Shown here: piece after piece, positions 12,601 to 46,515 of the stretch | Layout of the letters: the number at the start of each line of letters is the position of its first letter | How positions within the stretch are numbered: the first letter of the stretch is position 1 | NCBI RefSeq assembly: GCF_000507245.1 | Contig: NC_023035.1 | Location: 3,329,570 to 3,393,569, forward strand | DNA length: 64,000 bases | Origin: Salinispira pacifica | Lineage (GTDB): Bacteria > Spirochaetota > Spirochaetia > DSM-27196 > Salinispiraceae | Reading direction: 5' to 3' | Made by a program: the position numbers and the translations under genes | The notes under the pieces: generated by a model | Databases searched by the model: none | What the model saw: the letters and a program-made list of their open reading frames with translations, nothing else | What the model was told of the DNA's origin: nothing

Positions 12601-15600
12601 GGTACTGCCCAGAGTAAGGGCCGTCCAGCTGCCGCCCCCGTCAATTGAGTACTCAAGACTGCTGAGATTTCCCACCCCGCCGTTCTCGGTGATTGATCCG
12701 GAGATATCCATCTCCCCGTTGGCGTATATTCTCCCCGCCTGGGGTAGAGGGTCCCCATCAAAACTGTCAATATAGGGGTCGGGGTTATTGAAACTGATGG
12801 ATGGAGCCACCCGGTCAAGATTCACATCCTTTTCCACCACTGCGGTTTTTCCCGCAGCGTCATAGACGGTAAATCGGTAGGTATAGACGTCGTCGCTGTC
12901 GCCGCCGTCGATGGTTCTGGTATAACTCCAGTCTCCGGTGCCTGAATCGAAGCTGGCGGTTCCCGCTGAACTGTATGTTCCCGCCCCGATTTTCTCTTCC
13001 ACTTCTATGCGGTCCACAGCATTGCTGTCCGCCGCATCTCCAGAAATGCTGAAGCCCGCATTGCGGTACATGGTGCTCAGTCCGCCGTCAATGCTTATGG
13101 TAGGCGCATTCTGATCAATACCGAAATCATGAGTGGTCATGGCGGACTGGTTGCCCGAATTATCCACGGCGATCACAAAAAGACTGCGCTCCCCTTCTCC
13201 GCTTAAGGAAATGGTGGCGTTCCAGCTCGTGGTGCCGCTGGCCGGCTGCCAGCCTGAATCGCTCAAGTCGGTGGTGGGGCTGCTTCCCCGGGCACCAACA
13301 CGGTAGTATACCGAATCGATACCTGCTGCACCGTTATCCGTTGCGCTGCCCTGCACCGCGTAGCTGGACCCGCTGAGCCACTGATCCGCAGCCGGATCGC
13401 TCACTCCGGGAGCATTCGGCGCACTGCTGTCCACAACAATTTCTTTCTGCACCGAATTCTGCCGCCCCACGCTGTCAGTGAGAGTAATTACATACACATA
13501 GGAGCCCTCGCCGGCGGATATGTCTGTGTCTACCGACCAGGTTCGCGAACTGTCACCATCGGCCCCGTTGAGAACCCCGGTTGCGCTGAAAATATCCGCG
13601 GCAGCACCGCCGTCCTTGGACTGGGTGACCGCCACCGAGCTCACCCCGTTGGTGTCGTTGGCCGTACCGCTGATGGTAAAGTCAGCCGCCTTGTAGAGGA
13701 TTACATCGCCCCAGTCGGCCCCGCCGTCTTCTTCCAGATTGGAGACAAAGGGTGCTGACTGATCCACTACGAAAATCTGTTCAACCGCCGGGGCAAGATT
13801 CCCCGCCTTGTCCCGTGCCCGGACCCAGGCGCTATGAGATCCTTCAGCCAGGCCGGTGTCTGCGCCGGCTCCGTCAATATCAAGATCCACGGAAAAATTC
13901 CAGGACGAAGGCGATCCGGAAACCGCCGACCAGCTGCCGTCTGTTCCGTCTGTGCTGTCCAGGGAGTATTCCACGCCGCCGGACCCCAGTGACGCCAGGC
14001 CGCTGCCGCTGTCGCCGGCGCTTCCCAGAAGGCTTACCACATTCCCGGAGACATAATCTCCCGGATCATCGAAGCTCAAGGATTCGGGTGCGGTTTCATC
14101 GATCACCACCGTCCGGGTGAGCTCTGTTGTCCGGCCGGCCACATCTTCTGCGGTGAGGGTGTAGACCCATTCACCGTCGTCTGTGCCGTCTCCCGGAAGA
14201 GTTACCGGATGGCTGAACGCTCCGGAGCCTGCTGTGGTGAAAATCACTCCCTGATCCGCACCATCTTTTTCGGCACGTATTTCAAGGGATCCAAAGGCGT
14301 TGGTATCGCTTGCCGAACCGCTGAGGGTGAAATCCGTGTTGGTTTCCCCCGGGGCTCCGCTTTCGCTGAGAACCGGATCAGCTGTGTCATAGAAGAAATC
14401 TACTTCTGCAAGACTCGGATCGTTCAAGCCGTCACTTGCCCGCACCCACAGGGTTTTGGCTCCCTGTCCCCCTGAAGAGAAATCCACGTCGGCCACAGTC
14501 CAGTTCAGGCCGCCCAGGGAAATGGGAGTCCATGTTCCGTCGGACCCGTCACTGCTGTCCAGGGAATATTCCAGGCTGTCCACACCTGCACCGCCGTTAT
14601 CGGTAATCTGACCGCGGATATCGTAATCGGTTATTTCAACATATTCACCATTCACCGGATTGGTAACCACCAGTTCGGGACTGAGGGTATCGATGGTGAA
14701 CTGGCGGGTTTCGCTGTTGGTTTTTGTCGGTCCTGTTGTGAAGTCATCGGCCTGCACTTCCATGCTGTAGTCGCCGTCGTCGCTGTTAGCTGCCCGGTCC
14801 ACCGGCATTTCATAGCGCCAGGTAACCACATCGTCACCGTAGCTTCCGCTGACGATTTCAAGGTTTCCGGTTCCCGCCGGAATTTCCACGCTGTCAATAT
14901 AGAGTCGCACCTCTTCTATGCCGTTGGGGTCCGAGGCGGTACCGGTGATTACCAGCTCGTAGTTTCCGTCGGAATCTCCGTCGCTGCCGTTGCTCACCGC
15001 AGCCGGAACCGGAGAAGTAATAATAATGCTGGGAGGACCGAAATCCAGAGTGAAGGGGATCCATGCGCTGCTTTGCCCGACTGTTCCATTAATATCTTCT
15101 GAACGCACCTGAAAGCTGTGAACGCCCTGGGGAAGATTTTCAAGAGAATGGGCCCAGGTTACTTCTCCGCCGTCAACATCAGGCTGATTGCTCACATTGA
15201 CCCAGTCTTCGCTTTCATTGGTATCCAGAATATCCCCGTCGGAGGTAATATCTTCACCGTCCAGGGGCGCGCCGTCATTATACACATCAATACGGATCTG
15301 TACGGTGTCCGCATCCACCGCATCGTCATCGTTCACCTTTCCAAAAATGCTGGCTCCGTTGCCTAATATGTTGTCTGCAGCGGTTCCGCCGGATTGGATA
15401 TTGGAATAGCTGATCACCGGAATGTCGGAGCTTTGATCCACCCGTATGTGGCGAACCGATGAGGATGAATCGCTTACGTTGCCTGCTGCATCAACGACAA
15501 AAAATCGGAGAGTGTAATCCCCGTCCCCGTCAGGAAAGAGGGCCGGATCAGTGGTGTCTATACCGGTGCGGGTCCAGTTGGCAAGTCCCGAAGGTGTTAA

Positions 15601-17322
15601 CCAGCTTCCGTCAAAACTTGCCGGCGCCGGCTGTGCGGCCTGAATGCCGCTCTCGATTTTTCCGTATACCGCCTTCAGAGGATTCAGTCCGTCGTCGGCA
15701 ATCCCGCTGATGCTGATAATTCCGTTCACCGCGTCGCTTGGCTGGGAATACTCGTTGGGATAGGTAAGGCTCATGGTGGGCTGTACGGTATCTCCCACAA
15801 AGCTGTAGGTGCTCTGCCCCCAGCCTCCGTCCACACCGGCGCGAATCTTGAATGACTGGGATCCGTTTCCAAGGGTAAAATCTGTTCCGGCGGTAATGCT
15901 GGTTTCATAAGTTCCGTTCACAGCATTTCCTGATGTCAGATAAGCAGATGCCGGATCAAGTTCTATTGCATCGCTCCAGTCGTCATCTCCCGGGGTTACA
16001 TCAATTTCTATCCGTCCTGAGTTCAGATTGGTAATATCAAACTGGAAATCCAGGGTTTCGCCGGTTCCCACATACTTTCCCTGCTGAGGTGACTGAATCA
16101 CCAGACCGGGAACTCCCTCGGGCACACTGAAACGTACCGGCTGACTTGTAGCCTCTAAACCGTTTATGTCCGTTGCCCGGAGCTGAATATAGTAATCGTT
16201 GCCGCTGGGCAGATCCGATTCATAGCTCCAGTTGCTGCCCTCAAGGGTTAACGGAGAATCCTCCACGAGCCCGCCGGCATCATCGTAATTCACGTAACTT
16301 GTATATTCAAAGATCTTCACTTCCGCAGAGGCCACAGGTCCGTCGTCGTCCTCCACAAATCCGTTAAAACGCTGGGGGGAGGCGAAGGGATTGCTGCCGG
16401 TCTCCGACGGACTGTAAAACCCGAATTGGGGCATGTCCGAGTCGGGGTTCACATTGAGCATCAGATGATCCGCCGGATCGGCGTCATGCCGCAGACTTGC
16501 CAGGCTAACATTCAAGGTTCCAGGGAGAGTTTCTCCCCCGTACTCATAGGCGTTAATGTCTTCAATATTGGGCAGATCGCTTACATCGTCGGCATTGGTT
16601 CTGATATCCGCAAAATGATAAAACCAGGGATTGAAGTTTCCCGAGTTATCATATGCCCGGACTATCAGGTAATACTCGCCGTTCAGACCGCCGTCCAGAG
16701 AGGATGCATCGAAGCTGTAGTACCAGCTGGAGGTTCCGGTGGCCTTCACATCGGTGAAAACGGCGGAATCATCCGAACGGTCATAGAGGGAGAGGAGGAC
16801 CTCTTTGACCCGGGTGGTATCCGCAGCTTCTCCCTTTATGGTGACCACATTGTTGAACTCTGCATCGTTTCCATACAAATCCGGGGTGGTGACCAGCACC
16901 GTGGGAGGATTGTTGTCCACGGTGAGAAGGAGGTTAATGCTTGCATTCTTTCCTGAAGCATCTGTAACATTGAGCTGATAATCCACGTCCCCGTCGTTCA
17001 GGGAGCTGCTGTCGATTTTCACCGACCAGGTCTCGCCGTCAAGAGCTGCATTGAATGTATCGGTGCCGTCGCTGACGGTCACCGAATCAACCCGGAAGTC
17101 GTCTTCAACGGTTCCCGAAAGGGTGAAACTTCCCCCCACGTAATCGCCGTTGCTGTGACTCTCCACGCTGATCTTGGGAGGATCAATATCCACCTCATCG
17201 CCCAGGCCGGGCTTTAAAAGATCACAGGTGCTCAGGCCGAGCACCGCCGCCGCGATAACGGCAACGTCAAATATCCGTCGAATCCTTTGCAGGGTGTGTG
17301 AACGCTTCGTATTTCCTCTCAT
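6640..17322 (-). CDS. Giant lipoprotein with about 24 Ig-like repeats and a propeller-like C-terminus
   Basis: About 3,560 residues. I prefer the ATG at 17322 over one at 17385: it has an upstream GAGAGGA site, and it places a normal basic n-region and hydrophobic core before the lipobox LGLSTC, so the mature protein is probably lipidated. From about residue 40 to 2,900 there are about 24 units of about 100-130 residues. Each opens with a D-x-x-x-P motif and a G-T/S-x-x-D core (SGTVSDDDGV, SGTADDSNGV), as in bacterial Ig-like/cadherin-like domains, and many Asp/Asn positions could bind calcium. The last about 450 residues switch to repeated segments (VAPDGSRHITYLQN, VRDEVNGRNYVSYYD) like a beta-propeller. 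It follows the barrel-anchored Ig protein in the same transcription unit. A surface adhesin, spacer or matrix component is inferred; the ligand is unknown. Confidence 0.85.
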   Translation of the reverse strand: MRGNTKRSHTLQRIRRIFDVAVIAAAVLGLSTCDLLKPGLGDEVDIDPPKISVESHSNGDYVGGSFTLSGTVEDDFRVDSVTVSDGTDTFNAALDGETWSVKIDSSSLNDGDVDYQLNVTDASGKNASINLLLTVDNNPPTVLVTTPDLYGNDAEFNNVVTIKGEAADTTRVKEVLLSLYDRSDDSAVFTDVKATGTSSWYYSFDASSLDGGLNGEYYLIVRAYDNSGNFNPWFYHFADIRTNADDVSDLPNIEDINAYEYGGETLPGTLNVSLASLRHDADPADHLMLNVNPDSDMPQFGFYSPSETGSNPFASPQRFNGFVEDDDGPVASAEVKIFEYTSYVNYDDAGGLVEDSPLTLEGSNWSYESDLPSGNDYYIQLRATDINGLEATSQPVRFSVPEGVPGLVIQSPQQGKYVGTGETLDFQFDITNLNSGRIEIDVTPGDDDWSDAIELDPASAYLTSGNAVNGTYETSITAGTDFTLGNGSQSFKIRAGVDGGWGQSTYSFVGDTVQPTMSLTYPNEYSQPSDAVNGIISISGIADDGLNPLKAVYGKIESGIQAAQPAPASFDGSWLTPSGLANWTRTGIDTTDPALFPDGDGDYTLRFFVVDAAGNVSDSSSSVRHIRVDQSSDIPVISYSNIQSGGTAADNILGNGASIFGKVNDDDAVDADTVQIRIDVYNDGAPLDGEDITSDGDILDTNESEDWVNVSNQPDVDGGEVTWAHSLENLPQGVHSFQVRSEDINGTVGQSSAWIPFTLDFGPPSIIITSPVPAAVSNGSDGDSDGNYELVITGTASDPNGIEEVRLYIDSVEIPAGTGNLEIVSGSYGDDVVTWRYEMPVDRAANSDDGDYSMEVQADDFTTGPTKTNSETRQFTIDTLSPELVVTNPVNGEYVEITDYDIRGQITDNGGAGVDSLEYSLDSSDGSDGTWTPISLGGLNWTVADVDFSSGGQGAKTLWVRASDGLNDPSLAEVDFFYDTADPVLSESGAPGETNTDFTLSGSASDTNAFGSLEIRAEKDGADQGVIFTTAGSGAFSHPVTLPGDGTDDGEWVYTLTAEDVAGRTTELTRTVVIDETAPESLSFDDPGDYVSGNVVSLLGSAGDSGSGLASLGSGGVEYSLDSTDGTDGSWSAVSGSPSSWNFSVDLDIDGAGADTGLAEGSHSAWVRARDKAGNLAPAVEQIFVVDQSAPFVSNLEEDGGADWGDVILYKAADFTISGTANDTNGVSSVAVTQSKDGGAAADIFSATGVLNGADGDSSRTWSVDTDISAGEGSYVYVITLTDSVGRQNSVQKEIVVDSSAPNAPGVSDPAADQWLSGSSYAVQGSATDNGAAGIDSVYYRVGARGSSPTTDLSDSGWQPASGTTSWNATISLSGEGERSLFVIAVDNSGNQSAMTTHDFGIDQNAPTISIDGGLSTMYRNAGFSISGDAADSNAVDRIEVEEKIGAGTYSSAGTASFDSGTGDWSYTRTIDGGDSDDVYTYRFTVYDAAGKTAVVEKDVNLDRVAPSISFNNPDPYIDSFDGDPLPQAGRIYANGEMDISGSITENGGVGNLSSLEYSIDGGGSWTALTLGSTFDITGVDSSAVADGSDLDVSVRAIDRNGNSASSTQTLRVYQDSDKPVLNISAPTDGETISSQTINVSGTVSDDDGVGVNADSVQYRFSSDGGGTWGSWTNVSTTGSVTDRSFSFSFSSATDGPKAIELRAEDNNPTPVNSDVFTRSFTQDTGAPTLSGLTPANFSYQNGDFTVSGTADDSNGVDTVDIRILRDNVEIQAFTSTSLTGSSGDASRDFDYTVDTSAGDGLYQVILRSQDLGGNTREDSRQVYVDTTAPTAEFTTDFGSVDQNNSISINGSSSDAYGVQNLDVVVVDVNNAGAEMPLPTGTVSGTTLWTLSNLDTRNSTLLNYALDLGGGQYELTLRVRAEDEAGNAYSTSGTDDLTFTIDQSSDAPQVSIDGIAFDGSSSVTSPVISGTVSDDDGVSQIIIDSYAVDDSVTSETVTLTGAGYGAETVDWEITLSNTENGVRGIRVRSVDTVDNNGSDYSAMDYSRTDTGRIDFSLDTELPDAAVSGPANGTIWSSNDSFDFAGTSGDESGIVSLKYKFDDSDLSSGTTLISTPYDNWSFSVAQGSLADGAHTVYIQATDGVGNTRIASRAFTVDKTAPSISITSPADGSAVFGPLTIGGTTADNSGGAGVDNVSIGLGKQIDPTNASTLEASTWIDTGGTTSWSYSFLNINDYANSTFAVNTGDLDGDGVEDAGETWTDLWDFTVYVRAEDSAGLSGDGNVNYLTSYTLQIDPKRDRPEVTILSPDDGATVGGFVRVFGSAFDSQFVEKVQIAIDADNDGDYTNDSWSEGTLDETSDGVNWYQVNGTDSWNINLNENSEFDPSVGSTRTIGIRVRAKDYKQTPGDGIYGAEEEISITFNKDFPQFEGMTLVSGDTVSGTYLLSGLVRDETDIDRIIFSNEGPLLDNTVIFDNPGGLLPPGAANTTGLETAAAAAEGITVELLGTGDPDYDGAFPGSYRISIPINTEAAGLYNNGAGSMSVKVTAEDTTSPSPFTNQNLISFSVDNITPSDLAVTGSTEIIGTAAELQGTVRDTGTVAGIDRVVLYLTDRNGDLIQLKNGSGTTSSFTAADVYDLDNPAFDDYRIVIDNELESGAAGSDGLPSGDGDGFDERLALSAGTYQWSALFDSTAVNDGAVTLHSRAVDFAGNFSEAAQAAFIANNKPAINSLVLGTDLDASGTVEADEQGTTISSGYGSSNFTARNDLLYIAVNSAGGNGTLRYSIVYNGTEQNGALTDSAVEIDTSAFTESSSDNDQTIEITVYDSTTSDDADSTDELSAAVTLGLTIDNVDDTAPNLDIAPFGQGYNEDADDTQKALQPVTDYEENIAMSGDTRLGHVEYAADSLHDGTDADISGRVIIQGKAWDNQIIDRIDVSIPGYNGGTAFTVFGSGAGTSPDWSFTVDGSEYLNEDTGNVFNWDFEFDSSRIANVAENNVVLSFDIFDAGGNSVNRTMQVDVVPYISSIIRPDGAENTFRSRFGKFILRENEAQAGREILITGYNLAETGTSWVRVYNDDRSANDDLGAANYSANTEATHISITDSSNLTHSGWLSVMVNGIESINNRNGSSRDWQKEDDGSGLASTLWTDDRYVQMWNYEGSFDQSLSPVHPAMEADRNTWQLWASWSYYATSDMYSAAMGPVVNRTSYFSIYDPPEWTDILVAPDGSRHITYLQNYYNGGNAWGYLVTENNNGNVAYIERLGNGDADTPNYADGEDETLYQFQNPRIVRDEVNGRNYVSYYDAYSKTLKYAITDGANEIVATNGGNETSGATVVAGVEDTTASPTSSGEDVGVWSSIAVDSIGGSDATDVRPVIIFYNTTQRTLQIARGNTPEPANSSEWTVTDVFPAADTNDDTAGYYVDMKLDASGNIHAVAHRVSTGDLLYLYAPNIDGTGSYTFQTSEIIDSEGAVGSWADMDLAGDTPYVSYLTGNGIGTFSGLKMAYYDSTLGAWEYGVVATNSIVNSQRTSIVARPTSGAWVTSTAGKVAIGYGSGNYDLVILEDEE

Positions 17323-17415
17323 ATTTTTCAATCCTCTCTTTACTGCCGCGGGAAAAATCTTTCCCATTTCCATGGAAAGGTTCATCCCTGTTTTCCAGGC
17401 CGGTTTAGCCAGCGC

Positions 17416-20400
17416 CTAGAACAGATTTATCCGCATTCCGAAGGCCAGGCGGTATTTAATTCCTCCCTGGATATCGGATGAAATAAACCAGAACTGGTTT
17501 TCCACATACGCCGCATAGGCGTTCATTGCATTCCATTTTTCAATTTCAACTTTCAGAAGTTCAAGCTGGACGATTACCGCCCCCAGCACCAGACCGTCGG
17601 CTTCCGTGCTTCCCTGGGACGTTGAAGAATCCATGGTGAAATACTGGAAAGCCGATCCCACCGCAAGGCTGCTGGAGAGAAATTCCCAGTCCGGTCCGAA
17701 CAGAAATCCGTAGGGCAGACTGGCCACGTTGGCAAGAAGCTTCAGCCCCAGCACGTTACCGTTGAACCTGCCCTCCGGGGCCTGCCCCCCCAGCACCTGG
17801 AGCTTTACGTTGTTGTCGAAGAAGGTAAGTCCCAGCCCCGCTTCCCAGTAGGTGGCACCCAGAACATGAAGATCCACATACAGCCCCTGAATGAACTGGG
17901 GCACTTCATAGCTGTTCTTGCTCCTGGGGCGGAGGGTGAGCTGCACATCTTTCAGCCCGTTTGCATCCCAGGCGGTTCCGCTTACCTCCAGCTCTTCGTT
18001 CAGTGCGATATTTTCCTCGGGGGTAATGATGCTCACACTGGGAAGGGTGTCATCCACCCGGGTGAAGATCCGGCTCACTGCAGTCTCCCCGGATGCAAAT
18101 CGGGAGCGAACCATGACGCTCAACGGGCCGTCATTCAGATCCTGGGTTTCCAGCCGGAACTTCCATTCCTCCCGTGGCCGCATGGAGGTGAAACTGCTTC
18201 CGTTATCCAGTGAGTATTCAAGACTCACCAGCTCATACTGCTTTTCCAGCTCCCGCTGTTCCTTCCGGCTCATCTCATCTGCTTCCGATGCACCGTCCGG
18301 TCCGGACTCCCGGAAATACCCGGTGCGCCCGCTGATCCAGGGGCGCTGACTGGCAAAATCGCCGGTCCCCATGGAATCGATGCTCACCCAGGGACCTTCC
18401 GCCCGGTAGTCGATTCTGCTCCGGGGGATGAGACCTCCGTTTTCACTGTCAGCGGATGAGGCGGTATCCGGCAGAATTCTGAACAGATGAGATCCGTCGG
18501 CGATTTCACCGGGTTCAAAGCTCCGGCTGAAATAGCCGTTGTCGTCGGTTTTCAGTACATCAAAAGATGATCCGTCCATGGTGAGAACCACCTGGGACGG
18601 GATTTCTCCGTCCACCGCGTATGCCCGGCCTTCCAGGGTGAAGTGACCTGAAACCCTGCTTCCGTCAAAAGGATGCAGCAGGGCAAGCCGCCCCTCATTC
18701 TCGGGAATCACTCTGATAATATCCCGGGAAACCATGCTCTCATTCTCCGCATCATCCCGGGCGAAAATGCTCAGGTTGTACAATCCGGGCTCAAGGCCGG
18801 AAATATCAATCTGTTCCAGAACAACCCGCCGGGGTTCAAAATATCCCCCGAGCATGGTCTCACCGCCGACCTGTTGTTCCTGTGCGTTCCCGTCATCATC
18901 TGCAGCTGCCGCTGTGTCCGTTGTTGCGTCAGGCAGCAGCCGGGTAATCTGATACCGGATATCTGCAACCGTCAGCTCGTCGCTTACCCGAAGCTGAACC
19001 GGCAGACTGTACTCAACCTCACTGCCCTCCCGGGGAAGGGAAAGTTCCATTGCCGGAGGAGTGTTATCCAGGGTGATAATGCTTGAAGAAACCGATTCCA
19101 CGCCGTAGCCGTCAACCGCCTTTATGAGCATGAGATAGCTTCGATCCACCAGAATGCTGCTGTCCAGATCATAACTCCAGGTTTCCCCGCCCCGGGTCTG
19201 CTGGAAGCTGTTGCCCCCGTCCAGGGAAATCCAGACGCTCTCTATGCCGTTGGCATCCGATGCGCTTCCTTCAAGGGTCACAGTCCCGCCGTTGGTGCTG
19301 CCCAGCTCAGGTGAAAGCAGCTGCGCCCGGGGTTTTTCCCGGCTCACCCGGAATGGCGTTGAAAGCACATCGCTTTCCACACCGTATATATCCACTGCGA
19401 TAACATCCAGAACATGTTCGTTATCTTCCAGCTCTTCGAAGGGGATACGAATCTCAAAACTGTTGGCCCCCTCCACCGTGTCCGCCCGACGGTATTCTCC
19501 GTCATCCAGCCGGTAGCGGATAGAATCTACACCATCGTCGTCAATCACCGTACCGCTGAACAATGCGTCGGACTCAAACAGGGCATCTTCTTCGGGAAAT
19601 TCCATGCTGATCTTCGGCTTGTCCGAGGCGGGGTCAAAGTTCAGATCCACGTCCCGCCTCCGGGTATTTCCTGCGCTGTCACTCAGCTCAAGATATACTT
19701 GCCGGGGAAATTCGGCGTAGGGAGACAGATCAAGAAGATGCTCCAGCACGCCGTGTTCGCTCTGTTTCTCTTCAAATTTCAGTTCAATCTCATCGGCGGC
19801 TTCTTCTGAGGTTTCTTCTGCGGCGTCTTCGGGGGCCTCATCGCCTGCCTCGGCACCGTCGCTTTCACCGTTACCTGCAGCAGGCACGGCCAGGGCGAAC
19901 CGCCCGCCCGGCTCATGGCTGAACTGATCCCACACCAGGAAAAAGAGGGAATTACGACCGTTCACCACCTCATCACCCGGAAGAATCTGCTCAATTTCCG
20001 GGCCTTCAGTATCCAGCGTAAGAAGTCTGCGCACCGTGGTGAAATTGCCGGAGGCATCCTCAGCCCGTACCGTCAGTTCAAGGGGACCCTGATCGGCGCC
20101 GGCCTTTATCAGCTCTTCAGCACCAATTGCGAAGGAGAACGCACCTCTCCGCCCGGCATTCCGGTCTGCGGCTGCCGGATCATTTTCCCCGGTGGATGCA
20201 CCATTATCCGGAGAACCCGATGGAAAGACCGCCGAATCCTGTGTGAGGACCCGGAAATTATTGCCGTTCAGGCTGTAGCTGAGCACCGGCAGACCGCCGG
20301 TATTCTGGCTGGTTTTTCGGCCGCTACTTGCGCTGGCGTCATTTTCTTCGGCGGCAATACCAAAGGCGTCATTATCCGCAGCAGTTCCGGATATCCGAAG

Positions 20401-23400
20401 CACGTTGAGGTTTTCCCCTTCAACAGGGGTATTCAGGATGAGTTCCGGAGCAAGGGTATCGAAGCTTACCCCGTCTATTGTTCTGTCAAAAACCTGGCCG
20501 TCAACGGTTTCCAGTTCCAGCTTCAGCTCTTCCCAGCGGAGAACCTCTGCTGGAGTGAGGCGGACGATCCATGAACTTCCCGCCTGATCCACCCCGGCCG
20601 CGGGAAGACCCGCAGGCCTTGCAGTATCGGCCCCGTCGACATTCACGCTACCATCCCCTGAAGCGGATGCAGTTGCCGTTCTCGCGGCTTCCGGAGGTCG
20701 GCCGTTAAACAGATAGATGTAGCTGCCCGGCTTCTCTTCAACAGGATACCAGCCTTCCCGGTCGTCAATAATCCGGTTCTCCGTCGATTCCCTGAGGTGG
20801 AAATCCAGAAAACCGGTGACTTCTCGACCGAACTCATCGCTTATCCGCAGGCTGATGCCATGCCGCCCCGCCCTGAGACTGCGGTCCCGGTTTTCCAGGG
20901 GAACGGCAAAAGCGTACCCGCCGGCATCCCGGGAGCTGAGGTTCAGCTCTATCTCTTCACCGCCGTCCAGTACGTATACGGCCTCTTCAATTTTTCCGTC
21001 ATAGTCGAATGTTCCCGTTATTGCCGCCGGCTCTTCGCCGGAAAAGCGGGGGATTTCTTCCAGCTGCCTGTCAGCGAACACCAGCGTGCCGGTTTCCGGG
21101 GCGATGGTGAAGCTCACGCTTGCGGAAACGCTTCGCTCTCTGCCCTCATCATCCCCTTCACGAAATTCAATATAGGGCAGTTCGGCTTTCAGCTGATGCT
21201 GCCCTGCACCGGGAAAGGGAAACTCTGTGAATGCTTCAGGTCCGCCGGATATGCTTCGGGGTTCGCCGCCGTTCAGGGAGATGAGAATATTCCCGGCATA
21301 CTCAAATCTGCCGTTCCCGCTTCCCTTGGACACAACCCCCACCGGCAGAGCCTGGCTATCGCCGTGGAGATCACGGGGAAGGAGCCCTGCGTCAGATGAG
21401 AAAAAGGGAATAACCAGCCGCATGTTCATACCGGCTTCTTCCGGAGCCGCCCCGCCGGATACCAAAAGGGACCGGGACGCAATCCGCCCTGCGGCATCTT
21501 CGGCATAGACGGTGATCATGCTTCCGGGGTATACGATTTCGGAATCGGGGACGCTGATCTCAAAGCTGCCGTCGCCGTCCAGGGCAACCGCTGTGCCCCC
21601 GTTCTCTTGGTTTGTTTGGCCATTTGTTTGGCCGGCTGCATCGGCAGATACATACCACAGACGCCGGATTTCCGTATCGTCCTCTGCGGTTCCTCTCACC
21701 ACGCCGGAGGATGCGGCAGTATCTTCAAGGCTGATATCAGGAGCATCCAGGTCCGATATGATCACCGGCAGATCCCGGGTGTACTGTGTACCCCGGTCGG
21801 TAGTAATGCGTACTGCGGCTCCCCGGAGAATCCCTGAGGTCCGGGCAGAGATGCTCAGCCTGTTTCCCCGGCTCCTGAGGCGGAAATCCGAAGCTGCGGC
21901 GGCATTGTCATCTCCGGCTTCGTCGTTTTCCGGATTGTCGTTTCCACCGGGGAGAGTTAATTCTGCCGACTCCACGTCCTGTCCGAAAAATACAAGGTCA
22001 AATACTTCCCCGGCCCCAAGAACCACCGCCTCGCCGGTAGGGACGGCTGCTCCGGAAGCCATTTCGGTCGCTTCTATGGGAAGCTGGAGCCGGGGTTCGC
22101 CGGTATACACGCTGAGGTTTTCAATCCACAGGGGAAAAATATTTTCAGACACAGAACCAAGCTCATCTATGGCCCGGATCTTCACCGGCACATATCCATA
22201 GGGAAGGGACGTATCTGTCGAATCGGCAAGAGGAAGAGTGAACTTCCACTGTGTTCCCGGGCTGTCATTTCTGCTCTCTGTGGGCCCGCTCTCTGTCGAA
22301 TCTCTTTCGGGCCCGCTCGCTGTCGATTCACTTTCAACGGCTTCCAGCTTCAGCTCCAGGTCATCCCGGCCGGGAATGCTGGCCACGATTCGGCCTTTTC
22401 CGCTGTGAAAGTTCACATATCCTTCAAGCCCTGCATACTCATCGCTTCGGAATCCGATTCCCGGTTCATAGGCCAGTTCGCCCGCCGGCTGCCGGCTGCC
22501 GGGCTCCCCGGCGTCGGAACTCCGGACACCGGTATTTCCGCCATTCTCTGCTGCACGGGGCAGCACTTTCGCCATTTCAACCCGGGGATTCCGGGGTTTC
22601 AACAGAAAATCACGGCTCAGCTCTTCGCCTTGAAGCCCGTAGATATCTTCCGCCCGGATACGAAGCTCATGCTCTCCCGGCGGAAGATCTGAAATATCAA
22701 TGGTAAAGCTCCGGGGCGTGTCGATTCGCACTTCTTCTCCCCGGTTCAGACTGTAGATAACCGCACCGGGAGCATCGTCGTCCAGCACCCAGCCGCTGAT
22801 CTGCTCACCCAGGCGGTAGGAGGGCAGTTCGTCTTCCCCCGTTTGATCCGGCTCTTCTCCCGGAGATTGTGTTTCACCCAGGGCTCCGGCAAAGCTGATG
22901 CGGGGGCGGTCGGCCTGAACGTTCAGCTCTTTGCGATAGCGGATATTGGTGCTGTTACCGGCGGGATCGGTGAGGACGAACTCCAGATCCAGTTCATCGG
23001 CTCCGCTGAGCTCCACCGGCGCCTGCCAGTAGGGGTTGCCGGGCTCCATCGCGATTTCCGTCGCTTCTTCTCCGCGGTAGGCCCAGCTGAGACTCTCAAT
23101 GCCGTTATCGTCCCGGGCGCGGCCCAGTACGCTGAAATTGCCATCGGCCTGGAGATCTTCAGTGGGATACACAATCTCCAGTTCGGGGGGAGTGTTGTCA
23201 ACAAACAGAAGGAGTGATGCCCTGGACCTGGAACCCTGACTGTCTTCTGCGCGGAACACCAGAACCCGGGGCCCGTCTTCCATTTCCCGGGTATCCACAT
23301 CCAGTGCGAAACTGCGCTCACCGGCGCCGTCCCTGCCTTTCAGCCGGATCTCATCCCACTGGTCGCCGCTTCGGATATGCATGGCCGCTACGCCGTTAGA

Positions 23401-24108
23401 ATCGCTCAACGTGCCGCTGACCTTCAGCCGGCCGCTCACCAGTCTGCCGTTCTCATGACTCTCGATGGTTATTTCAGGGATATTTCTGTCCAGAATAAAG
23501 GAAACCGCAGTTTCCGGACCGGTGAGACCGTTCACATCCACCGCCCTGCTCACAATGGTGTAGGGTCCGTCTTCCAGATCGGATACATCAATTGACGCTG
23601 ACCAGAATTCCTTCCCTTCGGCTCCATTGAAGCCTGATGCATCCGCGTCCCGGGGATCGTCTCCGGGGATCAGCTGATATTCCACGGAAGAAACCGCATC
23701 ATCATCCACCGCAGAACCAAGCGCGGAAAAATTCCCGGCCACCCGTTCGTTCAATGCGGGAAAGGTGACAGAAGAGCGGGGAAGATCAGATTCGGGATCC
23801 ACCCTGATATCCACAGGAGGGGCTTCAAGAATATTACCCGCCTCGTCCTCTGCTGTCACAAGCAGATTGTAGCGGCCGGGATCAAGCCCGCTCAAATCCA
23901 ACTGTTTGCGCCACTGCAGCAGGCCGTCCACCTGCCGGGGGACATTCAACAGCTCCTGCTCTTCTCCGGCTGAACCACCCTCTGAACCCACTGGATCCGC
24001 GGGAGTTGGAGAATCGCCGGGTGCCCCGGCTTCTTCCTGTGCGTGCACAGGCCATGTCAGCAAAACGAGAAAAATACACGATGTCAGAACGGTCTTGAAT
24101 GCCTTCAC
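17416..24108 (-). CDS. Giant Ig-like repeat protein with a C-terminal outer-membrane barrel
   Basis: About 2,230 residues. The GTG at 24108 is preferred because a GGGGTG ribosome-binding site lies 6 bases upstream and the protein then starts with a clean signal peptide (cleavage near PVHAQ-E). An upstream ATG at 24210 would add a non-signal leader. After an acidic linker come many Ig-like units similar to those of the downstream lipoprotein. The last about 160 residues differ: they contain about eight amphipathic beta segments and end in MRINLF, the terminal Phe expected of an outer-membrane barrel. The layout is therefore signal peptide, long Ig stalk, C-terminal barrel. Whether the stalk faces the periplasm or the outside cannot be read directly. 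It ends about 90 bp before the lipoprotein start, so the two should be co-expressed. Confidence 0.8.
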   Translation of the reverse strand: MKAFKTVLTSCIFLVLLTWPVHAQEEAGAPGDSPTPADPVGSEGGSAGEEQELLNVPRQVDGLLQWRKQLDLSGLDPGRYNLLVTAEDEAGNILEAPPVDIRVDPESDLPRSSVTFPALNERVAGNFSALGSAVDDDAVSSVEYQLIPGDDPRDADASGFNGAEGKEFWSASIDVSDLEDGPYTIVSRAVDVNGLTGPETAVSFILDRNIPEITIESHENGRLVSGRLKVSGTLSDSNGVAAMHIRSGDQWDEIRLKGRDGAGERSFALDVDTREMEDGPRVLVFRAEDSQGSRSRASLLLFVDNTPPELEIVYPTEDLQADGNFSVLGRARDDNGIESLSWAYRGEEATEIAMEPGNPYWQAPVELSGADELDLEFVLTDPAGNSTNIRYRKELNVQADRPRISFAGALGETQSPGEEPDQTGEDELPSYRLGEQISGWVLDDDAPGAVIYSLNRGEEVRIDTPRSFTIDISDLPPGEHELRIRAEDIYGLQGEELSRDFLLKPRNPRVEMAKVLPRAAENGGNTGVRSSDAGEPGSRQPAGELAYEPGIGFRSDEYAGLEGYVNFHSGKGRIVASIPGRDDLELKLEAVESESTASGPERDSTESGPTESRNDSPGTQWKFTLPLADSTDTSLPYGYVPVKIRAIDELGSVSENIFPLWIENLSVYTGEPRLQLPIEATEMASGAAVPTGEAVVLGAGEVFDLVFFGQDVESAELTLPGGNDNPENDEAGDDNAAAASDFRLRSRGNRLSISARTSGILRGAAVRITTDRGTQYTRDLPVIISDLDAPDISLEDTAASSGVVRGTAEDDTEIRRLWYVSADAAGQTNGQTNQENGGTAVALDGDGSFEISVPDSEIVYPGSMITVYAEDAAGRIASRSLLVSGGAAPEEAGMNMRLVIPFFSSDAGLLPRDLHGDSQALPVGVVSKGSGNGRFEYAGNILISLNGGEPRSISGGPEAFTEFPFPGAGQHQLKAELPYIEFREGDDEGRERSVSASVSFTIAPETGTLVFADRQLEEIPRFSGEEPAAITGTFDYDGKIEEAVYVLDGGEEIELNLSSRDAGGYAFAVPLENRDRSLRAGRHGISLRISDEFGREVTGFLDFHLRESTENRIIDDREGWYPVEEKPGSYIYLFNGRPPEAARTATASASGDGSVNVDGADTARPAGLPAAGVDQAGSSWIVRLTPAEVLRWEELKLELETVDGQVFDRTIDGVSFDTLAPELILNTPVEGENLNVLRISGTAADNDAFGIAAEENDASASSGRKTSQNTGGLPVLSYSLNGNNFRVLTQDSAVFPSGSPDNGASTGENDPAAADRNAGRRGAFSFAIGAEELIKAGADQGPLELTVRAEDASGNFTTVRRLLTLDTEGPEIEQILPGDEVVNGRNSLFFLVWDQFSHEPGGRFALAVPAAGNGESDGAEAGDEAPEDAAEETSEEAADEIELKFEEKQSEHGVLEHLLDLSPYAEFPRQVYLELSDSAGNTRRRDVDLNFDPASDKPKISMEFPEEDALFESDALFSGTVIDDDGVDSIRYRLDDGEYRRADTVEGANSFEIRIPFEELEDNEHVLDVIAVDIYGVESDVLSTPFRVSREKPRAQLLSPELGSTNGGTVTLEGSASDANGIESVWISLDGGNSFQQTRGGETWSYDLDSSILVDRSYLMLIKAVDGYGVESVSSSIITLDNTPPAMELSLPREGSEVEYSLPVQLRVSDELTVADIRYQITRLLPDATTDTAAAADDDGNAQEQQVGGETMLGGYFEPRRVVLEQIDISGLEPGLYNLSIFARDDAENESMVSRDIIRVIPENEGRLALLHPFDGSRVSGHFTLEGRAYAVDGEIPSQVVLTMDGSSFDVLKTDDNGYFSRSFEPGEIADGSHLFRILPDTASSADSENGGLIPRSRIDYRAEGPWVSIDSMGTGDFASQRPWISGRTGYFRESGPDGASEADEMSRKEQRELEKQYELVSLEYSLDNGSSFTSMRPREEWKFRLETQDLNDGPLSVMVRSRFASGETAVSRIFTRVDDTLPSVSIITPEENIALNEELEVSGTAWDANGLKDVQLTLRPRSKNSYEVPQFIQGLYVDLHVLGATYWEAGLGLTFFDNNVKLQVLGGQAPEGRFNGNVLGLKLLANVASLPYGFLFGPDWEFLSSSLAVGSAFQYFTMDSSTSQGSTEADGLVLGAVIVQLELLKVEIEKWNAMNAYAAYVENQFWFISSDIQGGIKYRLAFGMRINLF

Positions 24109-24351
24109 TTCAATCACCCCACAATCAGCCTTACGAGAATCAACAAACAGATGTACTTTTTTACAATGATGCAGTTTTACATAGATGCAGAATCCGGAGC
24201 AGTTTTCCACAACACCGCTTTTTATCCGGATATCCCCGATTATTATTATCGGGTTATAATATAGCTCTGTATAGTAAGAACCCCTCTAGGATAATGGCTT
24301 CTTTGGAGATATTGGTTTACAAATTTTCATTGATGTATGCTGATTGAATTG

Positions 24352-36749: not shown

Positions 36750-36791
36750 GAGTACACTCCAACTATATAGCTATAAATCAGGAGTGTATTC
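36750..36791 (+). promoter_or_regulatory. Leader hairpin burying the ribosome-binding site of the DUF4143 gene
   Basis: In RNA, GAGUACACUCC (36750-36760) can pair over 11 bp (one G-U) with GGAGUGUAUUC (36781-36791), closing a 20-base AT-rich loop. The GGAG ribosome-binding site (36781-36784) lies entirely in the 3' arm, and the ATG begins on the very next base (36792). The loop contains the palindrome TATAGCTATA. Alternatively the dyad is a DNA operator over a promoter. Confidence 0.6.
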
Positions 36792-40287: not shown

Positions 40288-41394
40288 TCACGCCAGCTTC
40301 TTCCGGGCCTTGTTGGCAAAGTGCAGCCAGGTGAAAAGTGATGCGGCAATCAGCCAGGCGACGAGAATGAAGAGGTCGGCTGCCAGGAGGCTGCCTTCAT
40401 TGCGGATGGCCAGGCTGCGCCCGATTACCGACAGCGCCATGAGAAGGTTCACTGCGTGGATCATTGCCAGAATCTGCCCGGTGGAGAACCCGAAGGCCAG
40501 AAGTTTATGGTGGAGGTGTTCCTTGTCCGGATGATGAATGGGTTTGCGCTCCCGAATTCTGCGCATAATTGCCGCAACCATATCGATTATGGGAACAATC
40601 AGAACGGTTATGGTAACAATAAAGCCCGCCTGAAAGTGGCTGGGGTCGGCAGCTCCGTCCCCGGCGCCGATGAAGGCCAGAGCCCCCAGAGCGAACCCCA
40701 GAAAGAGGCTTCCCGAATCCCCCATAAACACCTTCGCCTTGGGCTTGTTGAATACCAGAAATGCCAGGAGCGCACCGAACAGCATAAACGAAAAGAGCGC
40801 ACCGCTGAGGTTGCCGTTAATCACATGGACCGTACCGATTCCCGCTGATGCGATGAGTCCCGTGCCGCCGGCAAGGCCGTCCAGGCCGTCGATAAGGTTC
40901 ACCGCGTTGGATATGGATATGAGCCAGAAAATGGTGATGGCCCCGCTCATGGGTCCCAAAGGAAGCACCCACCGAACCCCGGGAAGATAAATTCCGTCTA
41001 TGAGGGCACCGCCAACGGCAACCAGGGCCCCGGCAACAATCTGCCCGATCAGCTTGTAGATAGCCCTGATATTCACAAAATCATCCACCAGACCCAGCCC
41101 GTGGACAATAAAAAAGCCCAGAAAGAGGAGAATATTCTTGTTTGAGAAAAACCGTGTGGTGGTAAAAGAGGAATCCAGAAGGGGGAGGAGAATAGTGAGG
41201 ATAAATGCAGTGAGAAGGAAGGAAAGGAAAAAGCCCACACCGCCCAGCCGGGGGGTGTCTTCGGTATGAATCTTTCGATGATCCAGCTGGTCATACCAGT
41301 TGTTTCGATGGCTGATCCGGATAATCACCGGAGTAAGAATCAGATTTATCAGAAAGGCGATACCTGCCCCGGGCAGGATAAGACTCAGCTGCAT
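40288..41394 (-). CDS. WecA/TagO-type undecaprenyl-phosphate sugar-1-phosphate transferase
   Basis: 368 residues with about 11 membrane segments. Family motifs are all present: HTEDTPRLGGVG, the Asp-rich GLVDDFVNIRA, NAVNLIDGLDGLAGG, KVFMGDSGSLFLGF and the C-terminal cytoplasmic HLHHKLL histidines. The enzyme would transfer a HexNAc-1-phosphate (GlcNAc in WecA) to undecaprenyl phosphate at the inner membrane, the first step of O-antigen-type glycan assembly. It is the last gene of the - strand polysaccharide locus, 83 bp after the barrel gene. Its start codon and ribosome-binding site lie inside a long leader hairpin, which suggests separate translational control. Confidence 0.93.
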   Translation of the reverse strand: MQLSLILPGAGIAFLINLILTPVIIRISHRNNWYDQLDHRKIHTEDTPRLGGVGFFLSFLLTAFILTILLPLLDSSFTTTRFFSNKNILLFLGFFIVHGLGLVDDFVNIRAIYKLIGQIVAGALVAVGGALIDGIYLPGVRWVLPLGPMSGAITIFWLISISNAVNLIDGLDGLAGGTGLIASAGIGTVHVINGNLSGALFSFMLFGALLAFLVFNKPKAKVFMGDSGSLFLGFALGALAFIGAGDGAADPSHFQAGFIVTITVLIVPIIDMVAAIMRRIRERKPIHHPDKEHLHHKLLAFGFSTGQILAMIHAVNLLMALSVIGRSLAIRNEGSLLAADLFILVAWLIAASLFTWLHFANKARKKLA

Positions 41395-41465
41395 GGATAT
41401 TCCTCTGTTTTTCCGTATCTCTCAATATAGCTATAACTATATCAGAACGGAAAAGGAATATCCAT
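41393..41465 (-). promoter_or_regulatory. Long leader hairpin containing the WecA-like start codon
   Basis: In the mRNA, AUGGAUAUUCC (41465-41455) pairs perfectly over 11 bp with GGAAUAUCCAU (41403-41393), which includes the AUG start and part of the AGAGGA site. Further in, UUUUCCGU pairs with ACGGAAAA (8 bp), and AUAUAG with CUAUAU closes a 6-base loop. The whole forms one 73-nt imperfect hairpin filling the gap after the barrel gene. The apical part contains TATAGCTATA, also found in the leader hairpin at 36750. Confidence 0.65.
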
Positions 41466-41477
41466 TAGGCAGAAGTA

Positions 41478-42896
41478 TTAGAAACTGCGACTTAAGCTGA
41501 GCTGTACCACCAGGGAGACTACCCGGCCGGCAGGGTCTTCGTTGTTTTGCCGGTAGTAGGACCAGGACTGTCCGTAGGTCACCGGCAGCCCGATATTGAT
41601 GTTCAACAAGGGGGCAATTGACCCAGTGAGCCCGAAAACGATTTGTCCCGAATGGTCGTTATATTGATGATACCAGCGCACCGCCGGCTTCAGTCCGAAG
41701 ATCCGGGCATCGGTGAACACGATCCCCAGACCGCTTCGGTGCACGCCGTTCTCCGCCCATACAAGATTGGTATCCGCAGCGGACTCTTCTGCGGGCACGG
41801 GCCCGATCCGGGTTGTAATTTCCGGCCCGTATGAGAACCGGTATTCACCGATCAGCTGCAGGCCGATATCTGAGCTTTCCCAGAACATGTGAACCAGGGC
41901 CTGGGTTGTGGGCCAGAGGTACGAGGGTCCTATACCCCACGCTGTTCCGGCATCGCCTTTTGCAGGATACACATCAAAATCACCCCGTCCTTCAAGAGCA
42001 ATATCCACCCCCAGTACATTTGTCTTCACATACATGTTGCCGATGAGGGACTGTTCCAGATTCCGATTGAACTTGCCGGAGAAGCCGAGGGTGAAGGGAC
42101 CTGCAGAGGTTTCAAACAGGGAGGCGTAGGCAAAATCCAGGGGGCTGGGGCTTGCAGTTGAGGCAAGCCAGCCGTCTTTTACATAGATCACAGAAGTGAG
42201 TCCGTTCACCCCCAGGGGCATGAACATCTTTACCGCAATGCCGTCCTTCACATCTGATACCAGGTCGCCGGGATTGCTCAACAACTGCGCCTGTCCCCAA
42301 CTCATGGACTGCTTCCCCACCCGGAAAAAGTAGCGTTCAGCCAGGGTATAATCGATGAATAATTCTGATACTGAAGGGGTGGGAAAACTGAACCGGCTTT
42401 CATCCATGGAAGTGGAAAGTTTGGCAAAATACCGAAAATAGGGCAGCGGCCGGGCATCCACCGACACAGACGAACTCATATCATAGTACACCGATGCATC
42501 AAACTCTTCCCAGAGTATGTCGCCGTAAGGAGCCCCTTCCTCAGGAACGGGCCAATCGAGAAAGCCGCCTGCTATGGAGCCGGAAAGGCTAACAGTACCC
42601 TTAACAGTCGGTTTATCCCGGGTGGTGAGGGCGTCCAAGTCTATAGCGTCCTCGCCATTTTCGTCTGCGCCGTCATCCGCTACATCCGATTCGGAGTTTT
42701 CGGCATCATCTTCGGTGTCTGTGTCACCGCTTTCAGATTCACTTTCAGAATCGTTTTGAGATTCCACCGTTTCATCCGGCACGGCAAACAGATCATCCAC
42801 GTCATCCTGGGCATACAGCATGGAGGGGAAAAGGAGCAGGAAAGCAAGTGCGAATGCGGCGGCACCGTTACGAGGGAGAAGGCGGTTCACATTCAT
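41478..42896 (-). CDS. Outer-membrane beta-barrel protein with acidic N-terminal linker
   Basis: 472 residues: signal peptide (cleavage near LYAQ-D), an unusual Asp/Glu/Ser-rich linker (about residues 30-88) that begins with DDVDDLFAVP, then alternating amphipathic strands to a closing SLSRSF with terminal Phe. The barrel has about 16 strands by eye. The start overlaps the stop of the LolA-like gene, so the two are coupled. Context (LolA-like protein and FtsX-type permeases upstream) suggests part of an envelope trafficking module. A transporter barrel or a lipoprotein/glycan receptor are both possible. Confidence 0.75.
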   Translation of the reverse strand: MNVNRLLPRNGAAAFALAFLLLFPSMLYAQDDVDDLFAVPDETVESQNDSESESESGDTDTEDDAENSESDVADDGADENGEDAIDLDALTTRDKPTVKGTVSLSGSIAGGFLDWPVPEEGAPYGDILWEEFDASVYYDMSSSVSVDARPLPYFRYFAKLSTSMDESRFSFPTPSVSELFIDYTLAERYFFRVGKQSMSWGQAQLLSNPGDLVSDVKDGIAVKMFMPLGVNGLTSVIYVKDGWLASTASPSPLDFAYASLFETSAGPFTLGFSGKFNRNLEQSLIGNMYVKTNVLGVDIALEGRGDFDVYPAKGDAGTAWGIGPSYLWPTTQALVHMFWESSDIGLQLIGEYRFSYGPEITTRIGPVPAEESAADTNLVWAENGVHRSGLGIVFTDARIFGLKPAVRWYHQYNDHSGQIVFGLTGSIAPLLNINIGLPVTYGQSWSYYRQNNEDPAGRVVSLVVQLSLSRSF

Positions 42897-45034: not shown

Positions 45035-46515
45035 TGCATCGCCCTTACCGGTGAGAGCCCGAGGATTTTTTTCAGAGGATATATAAGAGATATGACAGAA
45101 ACAAGCAGTGCGGCTCCAATGTGAAAGACCAAAAGTTCAGAAGTTATTTGTCCGCGAATGGAGGAGCCGCCGAATAATAACTGTAAATAGTAGTTGTCAG
45201 GTCTTGGCTGGAGGGAGTTCACTATGCCCACCCCCGCGACAGAGAGCACTATGCCAAGAAGAGCGGATCCCAGAATGACAATACCGACTTCGTAGGAAAT
45301 GAGGGTGGCAACCTTTGACTTTGGAGCACCCATTGCACGCATGGTGCCAATTTCATTTTTCCGCTCCAGGACCGATAAAACAATGGCGTTCATACTTACC
45401 GATGAAGCTCCAACTATGACAAAGATGATGCCTATATTAATGAGGATGCGCAAAAACCAGACGATGAGTACATTTCCTCCAATGCTCCGTCTCCAGTCCC
45501 GTACATCATGTTCAATCTCAGGCATCTTTTGAGCGAGCAGACTGTCGATGCGCTGCACGCCCCGGGTCTCGCTTACCCTGCCGGCAAAGCGCAGAAGGAC
45601 AAAGTTCCAGGCGTTACTTACCGGTCTGGCACTTTCAGCAATGGATTCATTGTTACTGAACAGTGAGTCTATTTCAGACAAGATTCCGTCAGCGGAGGCT
45701 GTGGAGCCGGTTTCATCAGTTACAGCAGAATCAGGTTGAGGGGAGGCAAAGAGGTCATCCACCGAAGAGTCGATGAGACCCTGCTGACTGTCTTCCAATA
45801 CCGATGTTTCACTTGCACCGTACACGTAGCCATTCAGCCCCCGGGCTGTGTCGGCATCCACCAGGGCCACTCTGTTGAGAAGATCATCATCCACCGGATA
45901 CTCATATACTCCCGCCAAAGGCACTTCACGGATTGTGAAGCTTGACTCATAGGCAACGGTGAGGGTTACAGGCTCTCCAATGAGGGAGTCTTTTCCACTT
46001 CGCTCAACAAACTGATCATAGAGATTTTTTTGAATGAGGATTCCCGATGTTCCTGGATGAGGATATGAACCATGAACCAGTTGAACATGAGGGAAAAAGG
46101 ATGCGTAGCTGTCAAAATCCACTCCGAAGAGGGACCTTGCTGAAGACTGTCCGGCAGTTTTCAGCTGGGCTGCACTGCTTACAACCGGGAGTGTGGAGGA
46201 GAGCAGCTCCTCCTCCCCTGTTGTTTCATTCAGCGCATCATTCAGACGTTCATAGTCGTCGAACACAGGAGGGATGAGGTACTCACCCACCAGGAGAGCT
46301 TCTGATCCAAAGAGGGTAAAGCTGTTCTCGCTTTCGGGTGAGATACTCGCCTGACCGCTTACATTATCCACATATGCAGAGGAAAAGGATGCATCTATGA
46401 AGGCAAGAATGCTGTTCACCCCGAAGAGCAGGAAAAACGAAAGACCCATGATAATAATCATGGGTCTCATCCGTTTCATGTTTCGTTGTATATTTCTGAA
46501 GGCAAGAATGAACAA
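45031..46515 (-). CDS. FtsX/LolC-type ABC transporter permease with periplasmic insert
   Basis: 494 residues, with the same topology as its partner: an N-terminal membrane segment (about 18-38), a large periplasmic domain and three C-terminal segments, with VLERKNEIGTMRAMGAPKSK matching the FtsX signature. The periplasmic domain has a low-complexity acidic insert (about residues 240-295) containing SSVDDLFASPQ and SEIDSLFSN. The first motif also opens the mature barrel protein at 41478. The start lies 3 bp after the Wzz-like gene, so it is part of the same transcript. Confidence 0.87.
   Translation of the reverse strand: MFILAFRNIQRNMKRMRPMIIIMGLSFFLLFGVNSILAFIDASFSSAYVDNVSGQASISPESENSFTLFGSEALLVGEYLIPPVFDDYERLNDALNETTGEEELLSSTLPVVSSAAQLKTAGQSSARSLFGVDFDSYASFFPHVQLVHGSYPHPGTSGILIQKNLYDQFVERSGKDSLIGEPVTLTVAYESSFTIREVPLAGVYEYPVDDDLLNRVALVDADTARGLNGYVYGASETSVLEDSQQGLIDSSVDDLFASPQPDSAVTDETGSTASADGILSEIDSLFSNNESIAESARPVSNAWNFVLLRFAGRVSETRGVQRIDSLLAQKMPEIEHDVRDWRRSIGGNVLIVWFLRILINIGIIFVIVGASSVSMNAIVLSVLERKNEIGTMRAMGAPKSKVATLISYEVGIVILGSALLGIVLSVAGVGIVNSLQPRPDNYYLQLLFGGSSIRGQITSELLVFHIGAALLVSVISLIYPLKKILGLSPVRAMQ

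Follow-up and report, generated by a model that had tools for sequence, protein, structure and literature searches.

A candidate read-through-silencing hairpin with a promoter-like site in its 5' arm over the wecA start of Salinispira pacifica

Introduction

In gene e of phage T4 the start site is hidden in long early transcripts, with a 100-fold decrease in synthesis, whereas transcripts from late promoters, which are sited in the hairpin's 5' strand, have the site open; I-TevI is similar (available text of PMC3014915 and PMC2988022). A hairpin of 20 or more pairs has been proposed to block read-through transcripts of Bacillus subtilis sigG, and is unable to form in the transcript from sigG's own promoter (available text of PMC5942855). 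The present work concerns a hairpin over the translation start of a wecA-like gene of Salinispira pacifica, in a stretch of 64,000 nucleotides (nt) of contig NC_023035.1 (positions 3,329,570 to 3,393,569) that is called the window and from whose first letter positions are counted. A further described arrangement is the fold-back of IS10 and IS50, in which an inverted repeat hides the transposase ribosome-binding site in transcripts begun outside the element; the literature searches made here gave no confirmation of it.

The wecA leader resembles those of gene e and I-TevI, as far as the available text of those papers describes them, in having the Shine-Dalgarno (SD) sequence or AUG paired on long transcripts; in those genes a promoter in the hairpin's 5' strand gives a translated transcript unable to form the hairpin, and in wecA a candidate promoter has the corresponding position. 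This likeness is one of layout, no relation in sequence having been looked for. Gene e is a phage gene with a late promoter and a reported 100-fold effect, whereas wecA is chromosomal, has a sigma-70-like promoter candidate and has been modelled only. From the text available, sigG shares with wecA a chromosomal location 3' of a co-directional operon and an own-promoter transcript without the hairpin (predicted for wecA), but it encodes a developmental sigma factor and is driven by a sporulation-sigma promoter, while wecA encodes a surface-glycan enzyme and has a vegetative-type promoter candidate. IS10 and IS50 differ in being mobile elements, whereas the wecA hairpin sequence occurs in the genome only once. 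Literature searches gave no direct match for the wecA leader hairpin, and searches on transposase read-through protection gave none either; those on bacterial read-through and long untranslated transcripts also lacked a direct match but led to the sigG paper. By analogy the wecA hairpin is a candidate for a kind of device that is already known.

Results

Structure of the hairpin

Minus-strand RNA from 41465 to 41393 was folded with a minimum free energy of -30.9 kcal/mol, a stability reached by none of 200 dinucleotide shuffles, and the identical hairpin was recovered when the segment was folded in 201 nt of context (Table 1). A first-pass annotation, made from the sequence alone, had placed a hairpin over the wecA start without stating the strand; it is present at that place, in RNA of the minus strand. 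The stem lengths given there needed revision. The outer stem contains 12 perfect Watson-Crick pairs and one G.U pair rather than 11 pairs, after which the fold has 6 pairs, then 3 pairs and then an apical stem of 8 pairs with a 4-nt loop. The inner stem of 8 bp and apical stem of 6 bp described earlier arise when the same complementary segments are paired in another register. The A and U of the wecA AUG are paired and the G lies just beyond the stem. In computed folding of a transcript from upstream, a stable hairpin forms whose 3' arm contains the SD and start codon.

The energy needed to open the start site was modelled for RNA read through from upstream and for RNA started inside the hairpin. 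For positions -13 to +3 the cost of exposure was 14.1 kcal/mol when the RNA came from upstream and 4.0 kcal/mol when it began internally; for -18 to +6 the values were 22.7 and 5.5-5.7 kcal/mol respectively. The relief given by the internal start was stable over the eight start positions tried. The proposal of the first-pass annotation that the SD and AUG are sequestered is therefore well supported by the -13 to +3 model for transcripts arriving from upstream.

Table 1. Features of the wecA leader and adjoining genes in the window.
Feature	Position	Strand	Basis
-35-like TGGATA, in 5' arm	41459..41464	minus	promoter scan, 9/12 matches across both hexamers
-10-like TATAGT, extended (TGA before; TG at 41444-41443), in 5' arm	41436..41441	minus	promoter scan
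Predicted transcript start region, just past apical loop	41426..41431	minus	inferred, 5-10 nt beyond -10
Hairpin, 73 nt, 30 pairs, over wecA translation start	41393..41465	minus	RNA fold, -30.9 kcal/mol, z -7.8
Outer stem, 5' arm	41454..41465	minus	12-nt perfect inverted repeat
Outer stem, 3' arm, with part of SD and AU of AUG	41393..41404	minus	12-nt perfect inverted repeat; fold
SD AGAGGA, 5/6 bases paired (first A free)	41401..41406	minus	sequence and fold
wecA AUG start codon	41392..41394	minus	open reading frame 41394-40288; start aligns with orthologues
wecA-like polyprenyl-phosphate GlcNAc-phosphate transferase, 368 amino acids (aa)	40288..41394	minus	PF00953 E 1.5e-36; TIGR02380 ECA_wecA E 3.2e-37
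Barrel-like gene, 472 aa, co-directional, upstream of wecA	41478..42896	minus	open reading frame; stop codon 12 nt from stem

The rarity of the fold was examined by sliding a 73-nt frame along both strands of the window. Among the 21,310 segments obtained, the hairpin had the largest G+C-corrected residual, at -5.51 standard deviations, and the best residuals in eight locally shuffled copies of the window ranged from -3.83 to -5.11 (scanned at steps of 8 nt, against 6 nt for the real window). The fold alone is only modestly beyond the best of shuffled 64 kb, and its further rarity lies in its position. Of the 195 gene starts sampled in 264 kb, that of wecA was the costliest to expose from -18 to +6; for -13 to +3, 8 of 259 leaders in 664 kb equalled or exceeded the wecA value, the gene starts in both samples being taken from a rough open reading frame (ORF) caller written for this analysis.

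The promoter-like site and proposed mechanism

The two promoter-like hexamers are separated by a spacer of 17 nt, and the whole candidate site (41464-41436) lies within the 5' arm of the hairpin. When the 83-nt intergenic region was shuffled 5000 times with dinucleotides preserved, 0.64% of the shuffles held a site with at least 9/12 matches and the TG. A transcript start near 41429 would strip the whole 5' arm from the wecA message. By computed folding the leader shows one anatomical feature of the promoter-in-hairpin class, the wecA start being in the 3' arm, and a promoter-like sequence is placed where a start from it would remove the 5' arm.

The arrangement is best explained, with a confidence somewhat short of even, as a read-through silencer into which the promoter of the gene itself is built. 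In the mechanism that we infer, messages begun in the upstream co-directional genes would run on into wecA, which is possible because no terminator-like site precedes the gene, none having been found in the gap between it and the barrel-like gene. On such a long message the 73-nt hairpin would form and hide the SD and AUG, leaving wecA untranslated. A second, shorter message would begin at about 41429, just past the loop, from an extended -10 promoter of sigma-70 type within the 5' arm; in this message the 5' arm would be gone, the start site open and wecA translated. The output of WecA would in this way be set by wecA's own promoter, regardless of the exporter operon. On the modelled energies the hairpin would act on read-through and not on wecA's own message. 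The first-pass annotation had named a transcript start inside the hairpin as an observation that would count against control by the structure; the extended -10 candidate predicts just such a start, which becomes the likely mechanism.

If this proposal is correct, the amount of WecA made does not depend on the exporter operon ahead of wecA, and a chromosomal, non-developmental case is added to the read-through silencers known to us. Gene order could also be a misleading guide to operon membership, in that a gene may be present in an mRNA yet not be read from that mRNA.

Relatives and other leaders of the genome

Orthologues of wecA were found in 41 of 61 genomes at an E value of 1e-20, and loci were returned for 30 genomes, S. 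pacifica being included in both counts. The start could be placed in 29 of these, the remaining one (L036) having no candidate. A scan of genome contigs gave only relatives from other phyla, with 29-50% identity in their best segment, and these were left out of the comparison. No relative was close enough for a covariation test, the nearest (G002) being a member of the same family at 49% identity, with no genome from the same genus in the set. Among the 29 leaders that of S. pacifica had the highest cost of exposing -18 to +6 and tied with L053 for the highest cost of exposing -13 to +3. In a further relative, G007, the gene order was UgdH-like, permease, permease, wecA, LolA-like and barrel (names given here to genes of relatives follow likeness to the proteins of the window). 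The wecA gene of G007 stands between permease and LolA without such a hairpin, which suggests that the hairpin goes with the different place of wecA in S. pacifica.

The occurrence of the same layout elsewhere in the genome was surveyed in 664 kb. Modelled relief of at least 5 kcal/mol was found for 4 of 14 co-directional leaders with a promoter candidate, counting those with a gap of 20-300 nt, a candidate near the start and a usable start point, and for 1 of 13 divergent leaders; arbitrary start points gave a null of about 5%. Three of the eight co-directional leaders in the first 264 kb, where the idea arose, showed this relief. Enrichment of the layout is suggestive in that first sample, and genome-wide it is a lead rather than an established result. 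Leaders at L095:4996, at 36792 of the window and at L133:18109 share the modelled layout of wecA. It is improbable that such starts with a promoter in the hairpin form a recurring device that insulates genes from read-through; if they did, and internal promoters of this sort were many, whether a gene is translated would be decided by the transcript on which it lies.

Several leaders other than that of wecA drew attention. A 42-nt quasi-palindrome at 36750-36791 of the window (plus strand, z -3.86) lies just before the ATG at 36792 of a 402-aa ATPase-like ORF; the SD is in its 3' arm, and a candidate promoter, TTGAAA-17-TACACT, extends into the 5' arm. The leader of a 205-aa ORF at L095:4996-5048 of the same genome (minus strand) has an extended -10, TGCTATACT, in the 5' arm, and its modelled exposure cost falls from 19.5 to 3.7 kcal/mol with an internal start. 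A 154-aa ORF at L088:16567 (minus strand) has, only a few bases ahead of its ATG, the end of a stem of 19 bp that is closed by a 4-nt loop. The sequence TATAGCTATA, common to the wecA and 36792 hairpins, was considered as a motif family and rejected, as the genome has only four copies, of which one falls within a reading frame and another in a leader that lacks an inverted repeat.

Weighing of the proposed mechanism

A number of results speak against the proposed silencer. The candidate -35 matches the consensus at only four of six positions, 13% of the 5000 shuffles hold a site of at least 9/12 when the TG is not demanded, and a promoter scan of 3 kb gave two sites compared with 2.6 in shuffles, which is no excess. 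The first-pass annotation had named a lack of conserved pairing in relatives as counting against its idea, and this holds for the genomes available, as on inspection none of the 28 orthologous leaders contained a comparable hairpin. When 99 relatives were searched with the hairpin DNA, nothing longer than partial matches of 22-46 bp was obtained. The G002 leader does form a different hairpin, whose 3' arm holds the SD and whose 5' arm holds TATAAT; this hairpin is weak (z -1.68, with 15 of 200 shuffles as good) and the modelled relief from an internal start is small, from 14.5 to 10.1 kcal/mol. In the fresh 400 kb of the genome survey, 1 of 6 co-directional leaders showed relief of at least 5 kcal/mol, which is not clearly enriched over the null.

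The explanation that ranks next is that the hairpin is a neutral quasi-palindrome from a local inverted duplication, with wecA expressed from the promoter within it, read-through minor and the structure having no selected role. Such an origin, though unlikely overall, would account for the lack of conservation in relatives and for arms that resemble imperfect copies of one another (73% self-match over 73 bp, E 6e-4 in the S. pacifica genome), and shuffled windows are nearly as extreme as the real one (-5.11 against -5.51 standard deviations). It does not readily account for a stem that has its end at the start codon and takes in the SD, with the highest -18 to +6 cost of the 195 gene starts. 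It is quite unlikely that the start site is freed in the long transcript by a factor acting in trans, whether a protein, a small RNA or cleavage of the stem by RNase III. Factors of these kinds commonly target start sites that lie in stable double-stranded RNA, with adhE and lambda N as precedents, and the published ribosome-binding-site structure of ISPpu9, which is probably relieved by a small RNA, provides a parallel; on the other side, no Rfam match above chance, no candidate partner and no covariation support were obtained. The Rfam search of the hairpin returned three microRNA-type matches at E 0.34-1, the best scoring 20.4 bits where the gathering score is 100, and a known Rfam leader or riboswitch was rejected because the matches fall far short of the gathering scores.

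The 12-bp arms could also be sites for a dedicated repressor flanking the -10, about 61 bp apart from centre to centre, with the RNA pairing incidental. Each arm does contain a near-palindrome (GGAATATCC), and the sites lie on either side of the -10, but a DNA operator would have no need of the inner and apical stems, the genome has no other exact copy of the arm, and the 18 examined of its 35 one-mismatch matches give no sign of a regulon. Of these 18, 17 lie inside ORFs of at least 175 aa, on which ground an operator family was rejected; this explanation is considered rather improbable. The arm pattern as a whole gave 37 matches against 4 for a reversed control, an excess that is tentatively put down to codon use. 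Opening by temperature or by ribosomes ending on the barrel-like gene, as first suggested, appears very improbable. S. pacifica is a halophilic spirochaete that grows at 20-45 C with an optimum of 35 C (available text of PMC4511686). In the model, opening cost 18.3 kcal/mol at 20 C, a figure that had come down only to 13.8 kcal/mol at 42 C, and the SD was predicted to be mostly paired even at 80 C; an RNA thermometer was rejected, as computed folding showed no melting of the start site within the growth range. The proximity of the barrel stop, which ends at 41478 and is separated by 12 nt from the first base of the stem (41465), might favour coupling, as might a 7-codon ORF in the 5' arm (ATG at 41465 to TGA at 41442). 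By ribosome geometry, however, a distance of 12 nt from the stop is at the limit of what a terminating ribosome can reach, or past it, and the small ORF lacks an SD and owes its ATG automatically to pairing with the CCAT of the start region. Ribosome passage from the barrel-like gene is accordingly not upheld as a means of opening.

Two other identities were rejected for the element. A miniature inverted-repeat transposable element or other mobile palindrome would be expected in more than one place, and neither a second genome copy nor a match of comparable length in the 99 relatives was present. An intrinsic terminator was not listed here by the scan, and the stem is followed by GCAGCUGAG instead of a U run.

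Genes of the locus

The S. pacifica genome searched is a single contig of 3,782,798 bases. The TIGR02380 match of the wecA-like protein is under the curated cut-off. The co-directional genes upstream encode UgdH-like and chain-length-like proteins, two FtsX permeases, a LolA-like protein and the barrel-like protein, with wecA last and separated from the barrel-like gene by 83 nt. The barrel-like protein had no match in Pfam or NCBIfam, and its name is the label of the first-pass annotation.

A search of the genome with PF00953 gave two proteins, the wecA-like protein and one other, which we mark as MraY from its MurF-like and FtsW-like neighbours, as read from the translated frames; PF02397 gave zero proteins. 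Judged from these searches, the undecaprenyl-linked glycans begun by the PF00953 and PF02397 families, peptidoglycan excepted, would all start with WecA. With one of the two PF00953 proteins being MraY and no PF02397 protein, a route of expression independent of one operon would be sensible for wecA.

Further features were observed elsewhere in the window. A strong hairpin of low G+C is present on both strands at 46396-46504, where it lies close to the 5' end of the first FtsX permease ORF and within that ORF; the TTG start assigned to the ORF (46515) is uncertain. Two tandem and very similar ORFs of 251 aa occur on the plus strand at 26-781 and 977-1732, with starts that are signal-peptide-like. 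On the minus strand, giant adjacent ORFs at 6640-17385 (3581 aa) and 17416-24210 (2264 aa) contain many similar repeated segments, which by appearance look like surface adhesin domains.
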